Positions 57,127-63,332 of a DNA stretch of 64,000 bases are shown here, one piece after another (position 1 is the stretch's first letter; each line of letters opens with the position of its first letter). The translations under genes were made by a program, and so were the position numbers. This DNA comes from Candidatus Saccharimonadota bacterium (GTDB lineage Bacteria; Patescibacteriota; Saccharimonadia; Saccharimonadales; Saccharimonadaceae). The notes beneath the pieces were generated by a model. The model worked only from the letters and a program-made list of their open reading frames with translations, was not told the DNA's origin and did not search any database. The DNA is taken from positions 483,330-547,329 of the forward strand of contig JAECRG010000001.1 of the NCBI GenBank assembly GCA_015999875.1. Reading direction: 5' to 3'.

Positions 57127-57167
57127 CCAAGAAAAAACGACCACTCTATGTGATCGTTTTTTCTTGG
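57127..57167 (-). terminator. Terminator of tRNA-Met, stem includes the CCA end
   Basis: CCAAGAAAAAACGACCAC and its near-perfect complement (57150-57167) form a ~18-bp stem with a 5-nt loop. The outermost pairs are the encoded CCA of the tRNA, as at the tRNA-Lys gene. Confidence 0.8.
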
Positions 57168-57241
57168 TAGCAGCGACAAGAATTGAACTTGTGACCTCAG
57201 GCTTATGAGTCCTGCGCTCTAACCAACTGAGCTACGCTGCC
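57165..57241 (-). tRNA. tRNA with CAT anticodon (elongator Met; Ile2 not excluded)
   Basis: On the minus strand acceptor GGCAGCG pairs with CGCTGCT (one G-U). The D-arm is GCTC/GAGC, the anticodon loop CTCATAA (CAT) and the T-arm ACAAG-TTCAATT-CTTGT. CCA is encoded. The anticodon stem CAGGA/GCCTG has one A-G mismatch next to the loop. The three GC pairs of the initiator are absent. TilS in this window modifies a CAU-anticodon tRNA-Ile, so identity as Ile2 cannot be ruled out. Confidence 0.88.
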
Positions 57242-57780: not shown

Positions 57781-58509
57781 ATGACAGAAATAATAGCACT
57801 CTCGATCGTGTGCCTCGCAGCACTGATCCACGCTAGCTTCCAACTCAGTATCAGCACACTCACTCTCATGAGTGGGCATTCTATTGGAAATGGCCGATCG
57901 CACATGCGGCTCGTCACTCTGCTCGGTGGCTTTGTGGCTGGCGCCACAACCATGACAATCCTGTTAGTCTGCGCCCTTGGCCTACTACTAAGTTATCTCA
58001 TCGTCGGAGAACAAGTACCCCAGGTACTTTGGGCTGCGGGCTGCGGGCTACTATTCGGCGTAGGTATAGCCGTCTGGCTGTTTTACTATCGACGTGGCAA
58101 GGGTACTATGTTGTGGCTCCCGCGCCAGACGGCAGAGTTTCTCGCGGAGCGTAGCAAAAAGACCAAAAACACCGGCGAGGCATTTGCACTCGGACTAGCT
58201 AGTGTCTTCGGCGAGCTGCTGTTTATCATCGCCCCGCTCATGGTAGCTGTGCTCAGTATCGTCACACTCACACCTGACATGCAGCTACTTGGTATCGTAC
58301 TCTATGTAGCCATCTCCATGATTTCACTACTAGCTGTGGCTGCACTCGTAAGCGGCGGGCACAAACTTAGCGATATTCAGCGCTGGCGGGAAGCAAACAA
58401 AAACTTCCTGCAGTTCGCTGCGGGCACGGCGCTGTTTGTGCTAGGCTTTTACCTTTACGTAAACGAAGTACTTGTCACACCAGTATCCACGATTGGAAGC
58501 ATGTTGTGA
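57781..58509 (+). CDS. Polytopic membrane protein of the flavoprotein operon
   Basis: A 242-residue protein with about six helices, split by a charged loop (YYRRGKGTMLWLPRQTAEFL). A Gly-rich GGFVAGATTMTILL helix resembles those in LysE/DsbD-type transporters, but the family is not certain. The promoter TTGACT-N18-TATAAC lies upstream, and a six-codon frame (MRLTKK) starts at 57754 in the leader. The gene ends in GTGA overlapping the next start, so it is coupled to the ATP-cone gene. Confidence 0.65.
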   Translation: MTEIIALSIVCLAALIHASFQLSISTLTLMSGHSIGNGRSHMRLVTLLGGFVAGATTMTILLVCALGLLLSYLIVGEQVPQVLWAAGCGLLFGVGIAVWLFYYRRGKGTMLWLPRQTAEFLAERSKKTKNTGEAFALGLASVFGELLFIIAPLMVAVLSIVTLTPDMQLLGIVLYVAISMISLLAVAALVSGGHKLSDIQRWREANKNFLQFAAGTALFVLGFYLYVNEVLVTPVSTIGSML

Positions 58510-58793
58510 GCGGCAAGGTAATAGATATCGTCAAGTCAGGCGGCAAACGTCCCACTGAGACGTTTGACCGCGTCAAACTACACCACAGCATCAAAGCTGC
58601 GTGTCTCAGCGAACGGAGCCATGACGGTGCTGCAGACAGTACTGCCGAGAAGGTGTGCGATGCTGTGATAGCTTGGCTCGAAGAGCGTCCAGAAGTGACT
58701 AGCCACGATATTCGCCGCATAGCCAGCCGTCATCTGACCCGCCACAATCCTGGGGCAGCCTACATATATGAACATCATAGGTTTACAATCTAA
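58506..58793 (+). CDS. ATP-cone domain protein
   Basis: A 95-residue protein, GTG start. IVKSGGKRPTETFDRVKLHH, SIKAACLSERSHDGAADSTA and ASRHLTRHNPGAAYIYEHHR are an almost bare ATP-cone, the nucleotide-sensing module of NrdR and class I ribonucleotide reductases. A free-standing ATP-cone beside a flavoprotein is unusual. It may sense dATP/ATP for the two neighbours. Confidence 0.8.
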   Translation: MSGKVIDIVKSGGKRPTETFDRVKLHHSIKAACLSERSHDGAADSTAEKVCDAVIAWLEERPEVTSHDIRRIASRHLTRHNPGAAYIYEHHRFTI

Positions 58794-58808
58794 AAAGGGG
58801 ACATACAT

Positions 58809-60188
58809 ATGGCCAAAAAACCAAAATTCGATTTCGATCTCATAGTCATAGGCACTGGTGCAGGCGGCAGCGCCGCAGCCACGATCGCTGCACGTGAGGG
58901 CAAACGTGTTGCCGTAGTAGAAGCAGATACGTTCGGCGGTGATTCACCAAACTGGAGCGACGTGCCCACAAAAGCCCTACTCCATGCAGCGCAACTCTAC
59001 GACGAAGCACGTCACGGTGCTCGCTTTGGCCTACGTTCAAGTGCGATGAGCTACAACTACCCAAGCATTCGCGCCTGGAAAGAGCTTGCCGTCAAACGCA
59101 CGGGCGCAGGTGGTAACCGCAAATACTACGAAAACGAAGGCATCGCTACCTTCCACGGACGTGCACACTTCCTCTCACCAAACGAGATCAGTGTCAATCG
59201 CCGACATATCTCTGGTGAATTCTTTCTCCTCGCAACAGGTTCGACCTGGACCCTCCCCGACATCCAAGGGCTAGATCTAATCAACTACCTCACCCCTCGC
59301 ACTATTCTTGAGGCTATTCGCCCGCCTAAAACCCTCTATATCATCGGCGGAGGCTCTATAGGCGTAGAAATCGCGCAGCTCATGGCTATCTTCGGTACCA
59401 AGGTGTATATCGCTGATATCGCGAGCCGTATACTGCCACACGAAGACGAAGATGTAGGCAAGCTCATGGAGCAGCTACTTTCGACCCAAAAAGGCGTGAC
59501 TGTTTTGACACAGACTCGTACACTTGCTGTAGAAAAAGAAAATATCGCCAAACGCGTCACCTACACTCGCGGTGGCGTAGAGCACTCTATACGAGTAGAT
59601 GAAGTACTCGTAGCTGCTGGCCGCGTACCCGCAGTAGACCTAGGCCTCGAAAACGCTGGTGTCGAGTATACCCCGAAAGGTGTCGAGGTAAATGAACACT
59701 TGCAAACATCCGCCAAGCACATCTACGCTGCGGGCGATATACTTGGTCGGTCAAATAGCTTTACGCATACAGCCTTACTCGAAAGCCGTATCGCAGCTCA
59801 CAACATACTCCAGAAAAACAAAGCCGCTCCAGACTACACCGCCTCACCTCGCCTCACTTTCACATTCCCAGGTATCGCCTCTGTCGGTTTGTCCGAAAAC
59901 GAATGTATCAAGCGTGACCTACAGGTCAAAGTAGGCCTCAGCCCGCTCAATATCATCGCTCGTAGCAACACCAGCGATTTTCGAGACGGCTTCGTGAAGA
60001 TTATTGCCGACAAGCGCGGTACCGTACTGGGCGCAACCGTCGTCGCACCACATGCCGCCGAGATAATCCACGAACTTGCCCTAGCCGTTCGCTATGAGCT
60101 CACAGCCGCAGAAGTTGCCAATACACCTCATGCGTTCCTCAGCTGGAGCGAAGCTGTGCGTGTTGCCGCTTCACGGATTCAGGTCTAG
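58809..60188 (+). CDS. FAD-dependent pyridine-nucleotide oxidoreductase lacking the redox-active disulfide
   Basis: A 459-residue protein with the overall fold of dihydrolipoamide dehydrogenase and mercuric reductase. It has an FAD-binding LIVIGTGAGGSAAATIAAREG, NAD(P)-binding LYIIGGGSIGVEIAQLMAIFG, FAD AAGDILGRS and a dimer domain. Where the family has CxxxxC (GGTCxNxGCxPxK), this protein has GGDSPNWSDVPTK, so both cysteines are replaced. The C-terminal His (NTPHAFLSWSEA) is partly kept. It therefore cannot use a disulfide relay and may be an NAD(P)H oxidase, quinone or metal reductase. AAAGGGG precedes the ATG. Confidence 0.85.
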   Translation: MAKKPKFDFDLIVIGTGAGGSAAATIAAREGKRVAVVEADTFGGDSPNWSDVPTKALLHAAQLYDEARHGARFGLRSSAMSYNYPSIRAWKELAVKRTGAGGNRKYYENEGIATFHGRAHFLSPNEISVNRRHISGEFFLLATGSTWTLPDIQGLDLINYLTPRTILEAIRPPKTLYIIGGGSIGVEIAQLMAIFGTKVYIADIASRILPHEDEDVGKLMEQLLSTQKGVTVLTQTRTLAVEKENIAKRVTYTRGGVEHSIRVDEVLVAAGRVPAVDLGLENAGVEYTPKGVEVNEHLQTSAKHIYAAGDILGRSNSFTHTALLESRIAAHNILQKNKAAPDYTASPRLTFTFPGIASVGLSENECIKRDLQVKVGLSPLNIIARSNTSDFRDGFVKIIADKRGTVLGATVVAPHAAEIIHELALAVRYELTAAEVANTPHAFLSWSEAVRVAASRIQV

Positions 60189-60246: not shown

Positions 60247-60323
60247 CGCGGGGTGGAGCAGTCCGGTAGCTCGCTGGGCTCATAACCCAGAGGTCGTTGG
60301 TTCAAATCCAACCCCCGCTACCA
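60247..60323 (+). tRNA. Initiator tRNA-fMet (CAT)
   Basis: CGCGGGG...CCCCGCT with a 1-72 mismatch, anticodon arm GGG-CTCATAA-CCC with the three GC pairs of initiators, T-arm and encoded CCA. This is an unmistakable initiator tRNA. Confidence 0.97.
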
Positions 60324-60386: not shown

Positions 60387-63332
60387 CTACTTCTTCCCTA
60401 TCTTCGTAAGTCGCCACACTACAAAAATAATCAACAAGATACCGAGGAACAGTGGTGCAAGGAATGTATAGTCTCGCAGGAAGTACAGTACCGCGAGTAC
60501 CACCGACACCACGCCCCACCACATAACCCATGATTTGCGGAGCAGCGCGCCAGCCGTGAGGACTAGGAGATGTTCAACCAAGAATACAAGTGGATACCCA
60601 GGCTCGCCCATGAGTGCGTATACGCCAGTAGAGCCCGTCACAAATGCAAGCGCGATAATCGCTCGTGTCTTATACTCTCCCTTGCGCCACAATGCGACGA
60701 GACCAATCGTAAGCGCCCACCAGTGTCCGTAGAAGACAAGGTTCGATTCGGGTATAAGTACCGAGACAATTCGTTGCAGGGCAAATGTGCCGATATATAC
60801 CGCAGCCTCGACGTAATTCGTTTTGCTCTGCAAGTGACCATGGACACCCAGAGTAAGTGCAATAGCGAGCAGTGAGCCAGCGGCGGCTAGTACAAATTCA
60901 TTCGTACTCGCGAAGACATACGCCAGAGCAACGAGCCCAAGAACCACCCATACTGATACTAGCGAAGCCAGTTGGCGCCACTCGTCTTTTTTGCTAACCA
61001 TTAGCCAGTAAATAGCATAGAAGATTGCAGCGCTCAACCAAACCACGCCACGTAGCAGCCATTCCGAATCAAACTCAAGCCAATACCACAATGCGGTGAG
61101 CGCACAGACAAGCGCGACGTTGCCAGCAATCATGACACCCGGTATCTTCTCGACATGTGAACCGATCCAGAAGATACCAGTGTACACGACACATGCAAGC
61201 GTAACCCAGCCCATACCCGCTTGCCATGCGACAATAAGCCCAAGTAGCGGATAGGCAAAATACACCAACCGACTAATCTGCGTAAGCGTATTTTTTGTGT
61301 CTTTGAGAGTAACACGCAGCGCCACTCCTGCAACAGACGCCAGAAGTAGCAATGCTGTTGCCGTACGATACACTGCTGGATCTATACTGCTTGTCACGGC
61401 CGTCGCTACCAAGCACGCAAACACCGCAGCACCAAGTCCAGCGAGTGCAGTACGTCGCTCCCTCTCGCCGTTGAGATGATGCGCAGCTGCACCAGCAACC
61501 AGTAGCACGGCAGCGACTACAATCGTTACGAGTAATTGCCAATCCGACGCGATCGATGATTCATTTACCCATGCGATAATCGAAACGATACCAAAAAGTG
61601 CACCGATGATTTCAATCGTAACGGACTTAAGTAAGTACGACAACGCGACATAGATTCCTCCGCTCAGCAGCATAGTCCAGCCAATCGATATTCCATCACC
61701 CATCAACAGACCAGAAATTGCCACTAGCGCCGCATACGTGCCGGCCGCCACACTAAGTAGCGCGCGTATCGATTGTGACTTAGCAAGCGCTCTCGCTCGC
61801 TCTAGACCCATAAGCGCAAAGAGTGCCAGTATAGTGAATCCTCCTGCAACTACTTCATATGATACCGGTGGCTCAAACACACCTCGTGCGAGCACATATG
61901 GCAATGCTACAGATGCTACCAACCCCACATATGCCCAACCAGCTTCTCGGAATCGGACTGTAGCAGCAAGACTTAGTCCTCCGATAACCACTAGGCTCAA
62001 GGTAGTCCACCTGGCCATGTACACATCGCCCGCCCACCAACACATACCAGCCACTAGCATCACAAGCGAGACTACTACGAAGATTCGCTCTACTTGCACC
62101 CCCTCCTGATCTTCATTTGGGCGAACGCGTAGCAAGCTGTAGCCCGCCTGCAGTAGCGCCAACACCAGCATCCACACACCGAACTGTACTTGCTGACCGC
62201 TACTTGTCATCACATCAGTTACATCTAATGCAACGATGATTAACGTGATATGTGCGAGTACTCGCACAACCGCTTCGCACATGCGTTCACGTTTCTCAAG
62301 CCATACCACCAAGTAATGCGCTGTTGCTATGCCATACAGAACCTCGTACATAAACAAATCCATACTAGATCCAGTGAGTAAACTAGCTACCAGTGCAATG
62401 GGTGTGGTAATCTGCCCAGTTTTTTCGATAGGCTTCGCAAAAATACGTGGCAACGCAGTTGGCCAAAGGATATGCAGGCTGTTGCATAGTAGCGATACCC
62501 CTATCATCACGATAAAGTACCAGACAATCGACAGACTCAGAGTTGACACCGCAGATAACGCAAGAGAAAGTACAAACGCCATCGTAAGATACGAGACAAG
62601 CTCACTCTGGAGACGAGTAGCGGCGACCGCGTAGGCAAGTAGTCCTACGATCGAAGTAATAAGCCACGCAACTTCACCAGAGAAACCACCGAGCGATGTG
62701 AGCGCGAAGCCGATAAACGGCAAAATAGCGAGACCCGTACCAACAAATGCCGTAGCCGCTGGTCGTAGTCGCTGCGAATTACTATATAGCGCCATACCAC
62801 TGATATAGAACGCTAGAGTAACGAAGATAAGTGAAAACAGTTTTACTCCTGCTGGCATAACAAGCGTAACAAACAGTGCGGCGGCGGCTACAATCAGAAA
62901 GCTCGCTACATAGAGCAGGATATTGAGATTTTGGAGGGTTTCTTTTTCTTTACGTGCAGCTATATCCTCAGTAGAAAGCACTGGCTGTGGAGCGACCGCC
63001 TCTGTATATATAGCTCGTGGTATCTCCATGGGCTCATCGTCGTACTCATCAGTACCCTCGGGTATGATGCCGAGTTCTTCGCAACGCGGCATTGCTGCAT
63101 TGCCTGCACTGTCGGCGACAACACCATTACCTTCATCAACCAGTTGACGGAGCCTGTGTTTACTCACCTCATCACTACGAAGCAACTCCGAAACCTTATT
63201 GCCAAAAGCCCGATAGCCGTCCCAGTAACCCTGACCGTATGAGTTGGCGCTCTGATCATTTTTGTTGCTCGATCGCGCACTACGCCAAAGTGCGAAAAAT
63301 ACTATTGCCAGAAAAAACCAAAAAAAACTCAT
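60387..63332 (-). CDS. Giant polytopic membrane protein (DUF2339-like)
   Basis: A 981-residue protein. After an N-terminal helix and a soluble stretch of ~100 residues there are more than twenty hydrophobic segments to the end. Such many-helix proteins with an N-terminal cytoplasmic part belong to DUF2339/DUF2157-like groups of unknown role. No catalytic motif is visible. GAGGGGATGAG gives a strong ribosome-binding site. It is one of the largest genes in the window and stands alone. Confidence 0.75.
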   Translation of the reverse strand: MSFFWFFLAIVFFALWRSARSSNKNDQSANSYGQGYWDGYRAFGNKVSELLRSDEVSKHRLRQLVDEGNGVVADSAGNAAMPRCEELGIIPEGTDEYDDEPMEIPRAIYTEAVAPQPVLSTEDIAARKEKETLQNLNILLYVASFLIVAAAALFVTLVMPAGVKLFSLIFVTLAFYISGMALYSNSQRLRPAATAFVGTGLAILPFIGFALTSLGGFSGEVAWLITSIVGLLAYAVAATRLQSELVSYLTMAFVLSLALSAVSTLSLSIVWYFIVMIGVSLLCNSLHILWPTALPRIFAKPIEKTGQITTPIALVASLLTGSSMDLFMYEVLYGIATAHYLVVWLEKRERMCEAVVRVLAHITLIIVALDVTDVMTSSGQQVQFGVWMLVLALLQAGYSLLRVRPNEDQEGVQVERIFVVVSLVMLVAGMCWWAGDVYMARWTTLSLVVIGGLSLAATVRFREAGWAYVGLVASVALPYVLARGVFEPPVSYEVVAGGFTILALFALMGLERARALAKSQSIRALLSVAAGTYAALVAISGLLMGDGISIGWTMLLSGGIYVALSYLLKSVTIEIIGALFGIVSIIAWVNESSIASDWQLLVTIVVAAVLLVAGAAAHHLNGERERRTALAGLGAAVFACLVATAVTSSIDPAVYRTATALLLLASVAGVALRVTLKDTKNTLTQISRLVYFAYPLLGLIVAWQAGMGWVTLACVVYTGIFWIGSHVEKIPGVMIAGNVALVCALTALWYWLEFDSEWLLRGVVWLSAAIFYAIYWLMVSKKDEWRQLASLVSVWVVLGLVALAYVFASTNEFVLAAAGSLLAIALTLGVHGHLQSKTNYVEAAVYIGTFALQRIVSVLIPESNLVFYGHWWALTIGLVALWRKGEYKTRAIIALAFVTGSTGVYALMGEPGYPLVFLVEHLLVLTAGALLRKSWVMWWGVVSVVLAVLYFLRDYTFLAPLFLGILLIIFVVWRLTKIGKK

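Follow-up and report, generated by a model that had tools for sequence, protein, structure and literature searches.

A three-gene operon at positions 57,781 to 60,188 of a 64,000-nucleotide stretch of DNA (hereafter the window; contig JAECRG010000001.1 of GenBank assembly GCA_015999875.1, positions 483,330 to 547,329 of the forward strand) from a Candidatus Saccharimonadota bacterium (family Saccharimonadaceae) encodes a membrane protein (TM), a free-standing ATP-cone (cone) and a flavoprotein (FLAV) of the mercuric reductase/lipoamide dehydrogenase fold. We consider it reasonably probable (about 0.6) that this operon is a dismantled thiol relay, which once led electrons from NADH to the periplasm and has been kept as a membrane-docked, disulfide-free, diaphorase-like NAD(P)H flavoenzyme. 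Its thiol-conduit ancestry is well supported; the reaction that it may carry out at present is proposed with low to moderate confidence. Each part is of a known kind; their combination, with a graded series of cysteine states, was absent among the matches listed for the open-licence literature. An earlier reading made from the letters alone (the sequence-only reading) had pointed out the three genes; what it missed is that the unit appears once to have worked through cysteines, as a relay with a fourth partner outside the cytoplasm, and that these cysteines were lost in a coordinated and ordered way. The operon and its diagnostic positions are arranged as follows.

57781..58509, + strand: gene 1 (TM), a membrane protein of 242 amino acids (aa) with a predicted DsbD/CcdA-like six-span fold without the conduit cysteines (open reading frame (ORF), model and alignment)
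57844..57846, + strand: TM codon 22 (Leu), the column of the first conduit cysteine (INPC) in eight deep relatives (alignment)
58213..58215, + strand: TM codon 145 (Glu), 98% conserved, near the second former cysteine; helix 4 of the model is broken here
58222..58224, + strand: TM codon 148 (Phe), the column of the second conduit cysteine (ELPC) (alignment)
58506..58793, + strand: gene 2 (cone), a free-standing ATP-cone of 95 aa with a GTG start within the stop of gene 1 (Pfam, model)
58533..58577, + strand: predicted nucleotide-site residues of the cone, K10 (58533-58535), E18 (58557-58559) and K24 (58575-58577), with S11 at the position of NrdR R51
58796..58800, + strand: AGGGG, the likely ribosome-binding site of the flavoprotein gene (read from the sequence)
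58809..60188, + strand: gene 3 (FLAV), a flavoprotein of 459 aa with an ATG start and the MerA/lipoamide dehydrogenase fold without the redox disulfide
58935..58973, + strand: GGDSPNWSDVPTK, FLAV residues 43-55, in which CxxxxC is replaced by S46 (58944-58946) and D51 (58959-58961)

The TM-cone-FLAV operon is a real conserved unit, which we state with high confidence. A FLAV match (E 1e-30) is present in 187 of the 294 genomes of the class; locus-level examination covered 130 of these 187, drawn from the matches listed with coordinates and excluding the weakest, which may be paralogues. From these, 148 Saccharibacteria FLAV loci were taken, including that of the window (L001) and some genomes duplicated from two collections. 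With the window's own locus set aside, the order TM-cone-FLAV on one strand was found in 138 of 147 loci, and it holds with a wider gap in L046, L146, L192 and L195. Within the window's family, FLAV was matched in 164 of 175 genomes. Nine of the 11 genomes of this family without a FLAV match also lack TM and this type of cone (only NrdR-length frames were matched by the cone search in two of the nine), and the remaining two (G109 and G262), which add to the 164, carry the full operon with a divergent FLAV. The co-absence in nine of 11 genomes and the shared order in 138 of 147 loci thus mean that the three genes come and go together, and the free separation in close relatives that the sequence-only reading had named as its refutation did not occur.

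The alignment of FLAV throughout with mercuric reductase and lipoamide dehydrogenase, on which that reading had built, is borne out by the end-to-end Pfam matches Pyr_redox_2 (2.5e-50) and Pyr_redox_dim (4.1e-25), with a fold of two dinucleotide-binding domains for flavin adenine dinucleotide (FAD) and NAD(P), GxGxxG motifs and a dimerisation domain. The top NCBIfam models are MerA (TIGR02053, 346.5 bits at a cut-off of 454.45) and lipoamide_DH (TIGR01350, 344 bits at a cut-off of 408.8); FLAV is homologous to both yet passes neither, because both scores lie below the cut-off, and the FLAV of a deep relative (L136) is narrowly above the lipoamide_DH cut-off with 409.1 bits. Both redox cysteines are replaced in GGDSPNWSDVPTK, by S46 and D51 as first noticed from the letters, and the single cysteine of the protein lies outside the motif. 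Half of the catalytic His-Glu pair is missing as well: in HAFLSWSE, Glu448 is retained and Phe443 occupies the His position, and in the 14 cysteine-bearing relatives this position is likewise aromatic (Phe in 12, Tyr in 2). Across the 148 FLAV loci, CxxxxC is retained in 14 and the FAD GxGxxG motif is intact in 147. The second cysteine position, which we take to be the flavin-facing one, is occupied by Asp (99), Asn (14) or Glu (6) in 119 of the 124 distinct FLAV that lack an intact CxxxxC (three of these 124 retain one cysteine), and the first by Ser in 86. Because members of the class repeatedly show this replacement together with this gene order, the exchange to Ser and Asp is neither chance nor a sequencing artefact.

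For the window TM itself, Pfam gave no credible family, and sequence and fold searches of the Protein Data Bank (PDB) gave no usable match. The AlphaFold2 model (mean predicted local distance difference test (pLDDT) 96.3) was read as six membrane spans, in agreement with the six helices called from the letters, and spans 1 and 4 are interrupted close to the positions of the lost cysteines. In orthologues from deep-branching Saccharibacteria, span 1 reads AIDSINPCAIGVLILM and span 4 reads AAVELPCTGAPYLAI, and both conduit cysteines (INPC and ELPC) are kept in eight deep Saccharibacteria and in three loci (L242, L244 and L245) of family f108, which lies outside the class and has four loci (L242-L245) with TM and cone but no FLAV. 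The window TM has L22 and F148 instead of this pair. When a profile of 13 cysteine-bearing sequences and that of the window (14 rows) was compared with Escherichia coli DsbD by hhalign, the match reached 94.5% (E 7.4e-8), and the conduit cysteines sat opposite the cysteines of DsbD FTPC and SPCTTAP. The NCBIfam DsbD model matched L168 (3.2e-6), L136 (2.9e-5) and L246 (4.5e-4), all below the cut-off, and the f108 homologue L242 was matched by neither DsbD nor ArsG; a Pfam scan of 109 TM relatives gave DsbD_2 in six (best E 1e-6), SfLAP in five and DsbD_TM in one (0.0011). The homology of TM to the membrane domain of DsbD, traced through its orthologues, thus appears well supported. Nearly invariant residues are G54, Y102, T109, L111, L137, G138, E145, G193, R203, K207 and F209, and the loops around 102-129 and 195-207 are probably cytosolic by the positive-inside rule, because they are rich in Arg and Lys.

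All eight Saccharibacteria loci with a cysteine-bearing TM have, immediately upstream of it, a gene for an extracytoplasmic, His-rich protein with four cysteines. Its N-terminal region is hydrophobic, and a domain carries the motifs GGPVHWHADxE-x-W-x-CG, HEHxDKRIHLEG, PPGDC and DKxC; all four cysteines are invariant across 11 sequences. Neither a Pfam family nor a convincing PDB match was found for it. Within family f108 it was read in L242 and L244. Examples are located as follows.

L136:7385-8266, - strand: outer four-Cys, His-rich protein
L153:2944-3867, + strand: outer four-Cys, His-rich protein
L242:4153-4863, + strand: outer four-Cys, His-rich protein of family f108

Ten of the 294 class genomes encode the outer protein, namely the eight with TM cysteines, G113 and G163. 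Counted by genome, it is present in 8/8 with TM cysteines versus 1/122 without (Fisher p 5.5e-12, a value that ignores the kinship of the eight related genomes). The G113 copy has lost most motif histidines and kept its cysteines, next to a divergent TM and a FLAV with one cysteine; that of G163 is divergent, and no cone or FLAV was present in the 27 kb read there. The G163 remnant (L276:5243-6810, - strand) pairs this divergent outer protein with a 226-aa hydrophobic protein that the TM profile did not match.

The cysteine states of FLAV and TM are graded. Among 139 loci with both genes in view, both pairs are present in eight, the FLAV pair beside a cysteine-less TM in five, neither pair in 125, and a single FLAV cysteine beside a cysteine-less TM in one, with TM cysteines beside a cysteine-less FLAV in 0/139; nine of the 148 loci are without TM in the tabulated set, including that of the window, which was left out of the TM set, and L147. 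The same states by genome (n=130) number 8, 5, 108, 1 and 0, with eight genomes without TM in view, the window counted there. In a quick tree of 146 FLAV the cysteine-bearing rows are basal, and four changes are needed for FLAV and two for TM; a second, careful tree (53 rows, motif masked) requires five and two. The outgroup has GG-x-C-x4-C at the motif in 62 of 64 sequences from outside the Saccharibacteria (the other two look misaligned). Because the outgroup has the cysteines and the cysteine-bearing rows are basal, the direction is loss and not gain, and because no locus combines TM cysteines with a cysteine-less FLAV, the loss ran outside-in. The loss was coordinated and ordered, TM first and FLAV afterwards, and we hold this with high confidence.

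What was left after the loss is under purifying selection. Since synonymous divergence (dS) is saturated between the window and its congeners, closer pairs for the ratio of nonsynonymous to synonymous divergence (dN/dS) were taken from elsewhere in the family. Five unsaturated pairs of cysteine-less operons gave 0.01-0.12, with zero for one cone pair, and the operon is selected, not decayed.

The cone is an ATP-cone with nothing else attached, coupled to TM by a GTG start that overlaps the TGA stop as GTGA, just as the sequence-only reading had described it. Its 95 aa score 29.4 bits against Pfam ATP-cone (cut-off 25.8), the remaining cone matches being below their cut-offs, and the 28 best PDB fold matches of its AlphaFold2 model (pLDDT 85.3) are all NrdR or ribonucleotide reductase chains (E 4e-3 and worse; probability 0.89-1). 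The Zn ribbon of NrdR is missing, as the protein is the cone alone (TIGR00244 12.7 versus 124.65 bits). In NrdR, as described in passages of PMC9110341, the inner nucleotide has three contact residues (K50, R51 and E56) and the outer one has K62, and a portion of PMC12176259 also describes mutations of contact residues. Aligned to Streptomyces coelicolor NrdR, the window cone has K10, S11, E18 and K24 at these positions, so that three of four contacts are kept, and deep cones open with IVKR followed by ExxDExK, like NrdR. The nucleotide sensing that had been proposed from the letters is thus a prediction for the window cone, and it does not extend to all of its relatives, as discussed below.

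From the deep-branching relatives we infer that, in the ancestral relay, NAD(P)H would have reduced the FAD of FLAV, the CxxxxC dithiol would have passed the electrons to the cysteine pair of the DsbD/CcdA-like TM, and this pair would have reduced the extracytoplasmic four-Cys, His-rich protein. The free ATP-cone, whose gene lies between those of TM and FLAV in nearly every locus, presumably modulates or gates the complex through ATP/dATP. In the lineage of the window, the outer partner and the TM cysteines would have been lost first and the FLAV disulfide afterwards. In the present form, FLAV may dock on the conserved, positively charged cytosolic loops of TM, with its flavin probably still reduced by NAD(P)H; the FADH2 could then give its electrons directly to a small acceptor, such as a quinone, Fe(III) or another metal complex, a flavin or O2, and Asp51 would adjoin the flavin in place of the charge-transfer thiol. 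An electron-transfer unit at the membrane, as the sequence-only reading had suggested, is therefore upheld by the DsbD/CcdA-type ancestry and goes beyond the evidence as an account of present activity; metal handling, its other suggestion, was not borne out, and metal reduction is hinted at solely by the His-rich character of the lost ancestral partner.

Several known systems resemble parts of this unit. DsbD and CcdA carry electrons from cytosolic thioredoxin to outer (periplasmic) proteins, according to parts of PMC4460558 and PMC3914529. With the deep operon members they share the fold family and the positions of the conduit cysteines, in register with E. coli DsbD; in contrast, the window TM lacks both cysteines, and its presumed cytosolic partner is the flavoprotein of the same operon rather than thioredoxin, with an ATP-cone encoded between the two. 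A likeness to FLAV is seen in Irc15p, a yeast homologue of lipoamide dehydrogenase (LPD) that lacks both redox cysteines, is reduced by NADH and in turn reduces ferricyanide, 2,6-dichlorophenolindophenol (DCPIP), menadione and, slowly, O2 and no disulfide, as reported in sections of PMC6296175. Irc15p and the window FLAV both have the fold of flavoprotein disulfide reductases and other residues in place of the two redox cysteines; unlike FLAV, Irc15p retains the catalytic His-Glu pair and is described in the same sections as a microtubule-associated LPD paralogue. These sections of PMC6296175 also cover LpdA from Mycobacterium tuberculosis, which lacks one redox cysteine and reduces quinones, and SthA, which catalyzes hydride transfer between nicotinamide nucleotides; both have the fold of FLAV and have lost at least one redox cysteine. 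SthA differs in that it retains one cysteine, whereas the FLAV motif has none. MerA is the best full-length NCBIfam match of FLAV and has a like aromatic residue at the catalytic His position, but FLAV stays below the MerA cut-off and has no CxxxxC, no C-terminal cysteine pair and no Pfam HMA match. We know of no membrane or ATP-cone partner for Irc15p and of no linked membrane protein or cone for LpdA or SthA. The cone shares its fold and three of four nucleotide-contact positions with those of NrdR and ribonucleotide reductases, and differs from them as a single-domain protein inside a redox operon, without Zn ribbon or reductase.

A number of observations weigh against the proposed history and function. 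Nine of the 147 loci break the TM-cone-FLAV pattern: in L150, L159, L161, L174 and L210 FLAV stands alone, neither TM nor cone being in view; no cone was found in L154, so that seven of the eight loci with TM cysteines have one; in L147 TM is too divergent for the profile and a 236-aa frame occupies its place; and the loci L020 and L045 are incomplete, the genome of L020 seeming complete in L046. Since L210 sits on a long branch, the exact number of loss events is unsure. For TM, the mostly cysteine-less profile alone matched DsbD weakly (3.2%, E 0.014), no DsbD or CcdA structure was listed by the PDB fold searches with the TM model, and among deep members both ArsG (L168 2.3e-8, below the cut-off) and Pfam SfLAP (L153 6.9e-9, just above it) beat DsbD; because of the weak lone profile and the missing fold match, membership in the DsbD/CcdA family rests on orthology. 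Of 141 cone rows, 44 lack the nucleotide-binding hairpin, and most of these belong to the genera g3 (27/33) and g8 (11/13). As cone starts were picked by script, some of these 44 may be wrong starts; in L197 and L211 the reading frame itself is too short for the hairpin. ATP gating therefore cannot be general, and in hairpin-less lines the cone, judged by its residues, can only be an adaptor. Heme-copper oxidase (COX1) occurs in 100 of the 294 genomes and in none of the operon-bearing genera g3 and g8, and the window genome already has two proteins that resemble NDH-2 by eye. The hairpin-less cones of g3 and g8 (L197:4753-4989 and L211:4732-4968) keep the columns T65, D68 and Y88.

Two general explanations were tried and rejected. 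A strict tie to respiration fails on the distribution of COX1: every one of the 38 COX1-positive genomes of family f1 carries FLAV, yet among its 164 FLAV-positive genomes 126 are without COX1, and many COX1-positive genomes of f6 are without FLAV. The 126 FLAV-positive genomes without an oxidase therefore mean that a respiration-tied quinone role is not the general one. A general loss of thiol chemistry as the cause of cysteine loss fails as well. The TrxB-like protein of the window genome retains CATC, so thiols are not lost everywhere in that genome. A PF00085 thioredoxin was not found in the window genome and is present in two of three congeners examined; across the class, 146 of 294 genomes have one, many of them with a cysteine-less operon, and its presence does not track the cysteine trait.

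A further-reaching reading, which we hold tentatively, is that FLAV and the DsbD/CcdA-derived TM form a thiol-free membrane electron-transfer complex of a new type, under a free-standing nucleotide-sensing cone and with an outside-in origin. The conduit scaffold would then carry or steer electrons, hydride or a small redox carrier without cysteine exchange, and in the deep relatives a flavoprotein, a CcdA-like conduit and an outer protein would make up a relay in which thioredoxin is bypassed.

It is rather unlikely that TM has become a transporter of the LysE, SfLAP or ArsG type, with FLAV and cone as its redox and energy sensors and not as an enzyme. The better matches of deep TM members to SfLAP and ArsG than to DsbD speak for such a transporter, as do the membrane residue Glu145 and the cytosolic Arg203 and Lys207, which persist without the cysteines. 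However, the cysteine-bearing conduits, too, have a conserved Glu145 and conserved basic residues in the loops, so that these give no pointer to a new transport function, and the flavin and NAD sites of FLAV are conserved as in enzymes.

Slightly less credible still is a soluble, SthA-like NADH/NADPH transhydrogenase that is merely co-transcribed with the other two genes. Transhydrogenases are listed among such disulfide-less proteins in the part of PMC6296175 consulted here, and E. coli SthA has no disulfide either, its GGGCTHWGTIPSK holding one Cys and then Thr. FLAV is, however, only 27% identical to SthA and scores 235.2 bits against the SthA model NF003585 (cut-off 465), and a merely co-transcribed enzyme would leave the strict link with TM and the ATP-cone unexplained.

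Decay of an operon whose relay is no longer needed, with cysteines, outer partner and hairpin all lost for that reason, is improbable and already disfavoured. The stepwise loss in several lines, the 44 of 141 cones without hairpin and the degenerate remnants in G113 and G163 would fit it, but dN/dS stays at 0-0.12, the frames are open without internal stops in nearly all FLAV matches listed, the second cysteine was replaced in one manner (Asp, Asn or Glu) in 119 of 124 and the FAD motif is intact in 147 of 148.

Action of the free cone in trans on ribonucleotide reductase, with FLAV as part of the reducing system, is hardly credible. In its favour, ATP-cones are best known from ribonucleotide reductases and NrdR, and the window genome showed no PF00085 thioredoxin. 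Against it, this genome carries an ATP-cone within a frame of 839 aa, the size of a ribonucleotide reductase (judged by size only), besides an NrdR-type protein and another ATP-cone frame of 161 aa; nor would disulfide reduction be expected from a flavoprotein that has no dithiol. On account of the 839-aa frame, the cone was rejected as a missing part of ribonucleotide reductase; the NrdR-type protein is a 163-aa ATP-cone frame with a Zn-ribbon-like CxxC...CxxC.

The retained-flavoenzyme reading offers a functional hypothesis for a three-gene operon that is present in most genomes of the window's family. Living genomes hold an evolutionary series that begins with a transmembrane relay based on cysteines and ends with a unit that has none and is nevertheless preserved whole; this makes it testable what remains of a thiol conduit once the thiols go. 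The deep lineages suggest a direct pairing of a flavoprotein with a CcdA-like conduit that has its own outer partner, and the free-standing cone is an unusual case of this domain outside nucleotide metabolism. Flavoproteins of this kind are also easily misread as mercuric reductase or lipoamide dehydrogenase. In the open-licence literature, nothing was found that links an ATP-cone with Saccharibacteria, Patescibacteria or CcdA, and the phrases “free-standing ATP-cone” and “standalone ATP-cone” were absent among the matches listed. Judged by titles and abstract openings among the matches listed, there was no account of this unit for Saccharibacteria with CcdA, DsbD, MerA or LPD, and listings for Saccharibacteria thiol/flavoprotein, Patescibacteria disulfide or Southlabia transposon sequencing (Tn-seq) held nothing relevant.

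Homologues of TM occur in 100 of 379 genomes of the phylum, class members included. Those of other Patescibacteria lie near genes that resemble thioredoxin reductase by eye in L251, L254, L258 and L259, and the homologue in L246 adjoins genes that match VKOR and DsbC weakly. Genes not belonging to the three families were delimited as the longest non-overlapping ORFs, without a gene finder. A P-type ATPase, nearest to Ca2+-transporting models, is placed divergently in L136 (L136:8321-11041, + strand); in other cysteine-bearing loci (L153, L154, L168, L170, L178, L189 and L159) frames of ~850-970 aa stand in the same place, only that of L136 having been scanned, and in f108 a frame near the operon resembles a P-type ATPase by eye. 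Elsewhere in the 1-Mb window genome, L277 (G000:C1:155466-168800) holds a heme-copper oxidase cluster and a flavoprotein that resembles NDH-2 by eye.

A scan gave seven terminator-like sites versus 2.5 (sd 1.5) in shuffles, positioned within genes or upstream, with none after the operon, and four promoter-like sites versus 2.5 (sd 1.5). At 60387-63332 (- strand) the window encodes a protein of 981 aa that has many hydrophobic stretches and matches nothing in Pfam at E 1, and two tRNA-Met (CAT) genes flank the operon region at 57165-57241 (- strand) and 60247-60323 (+ strand).

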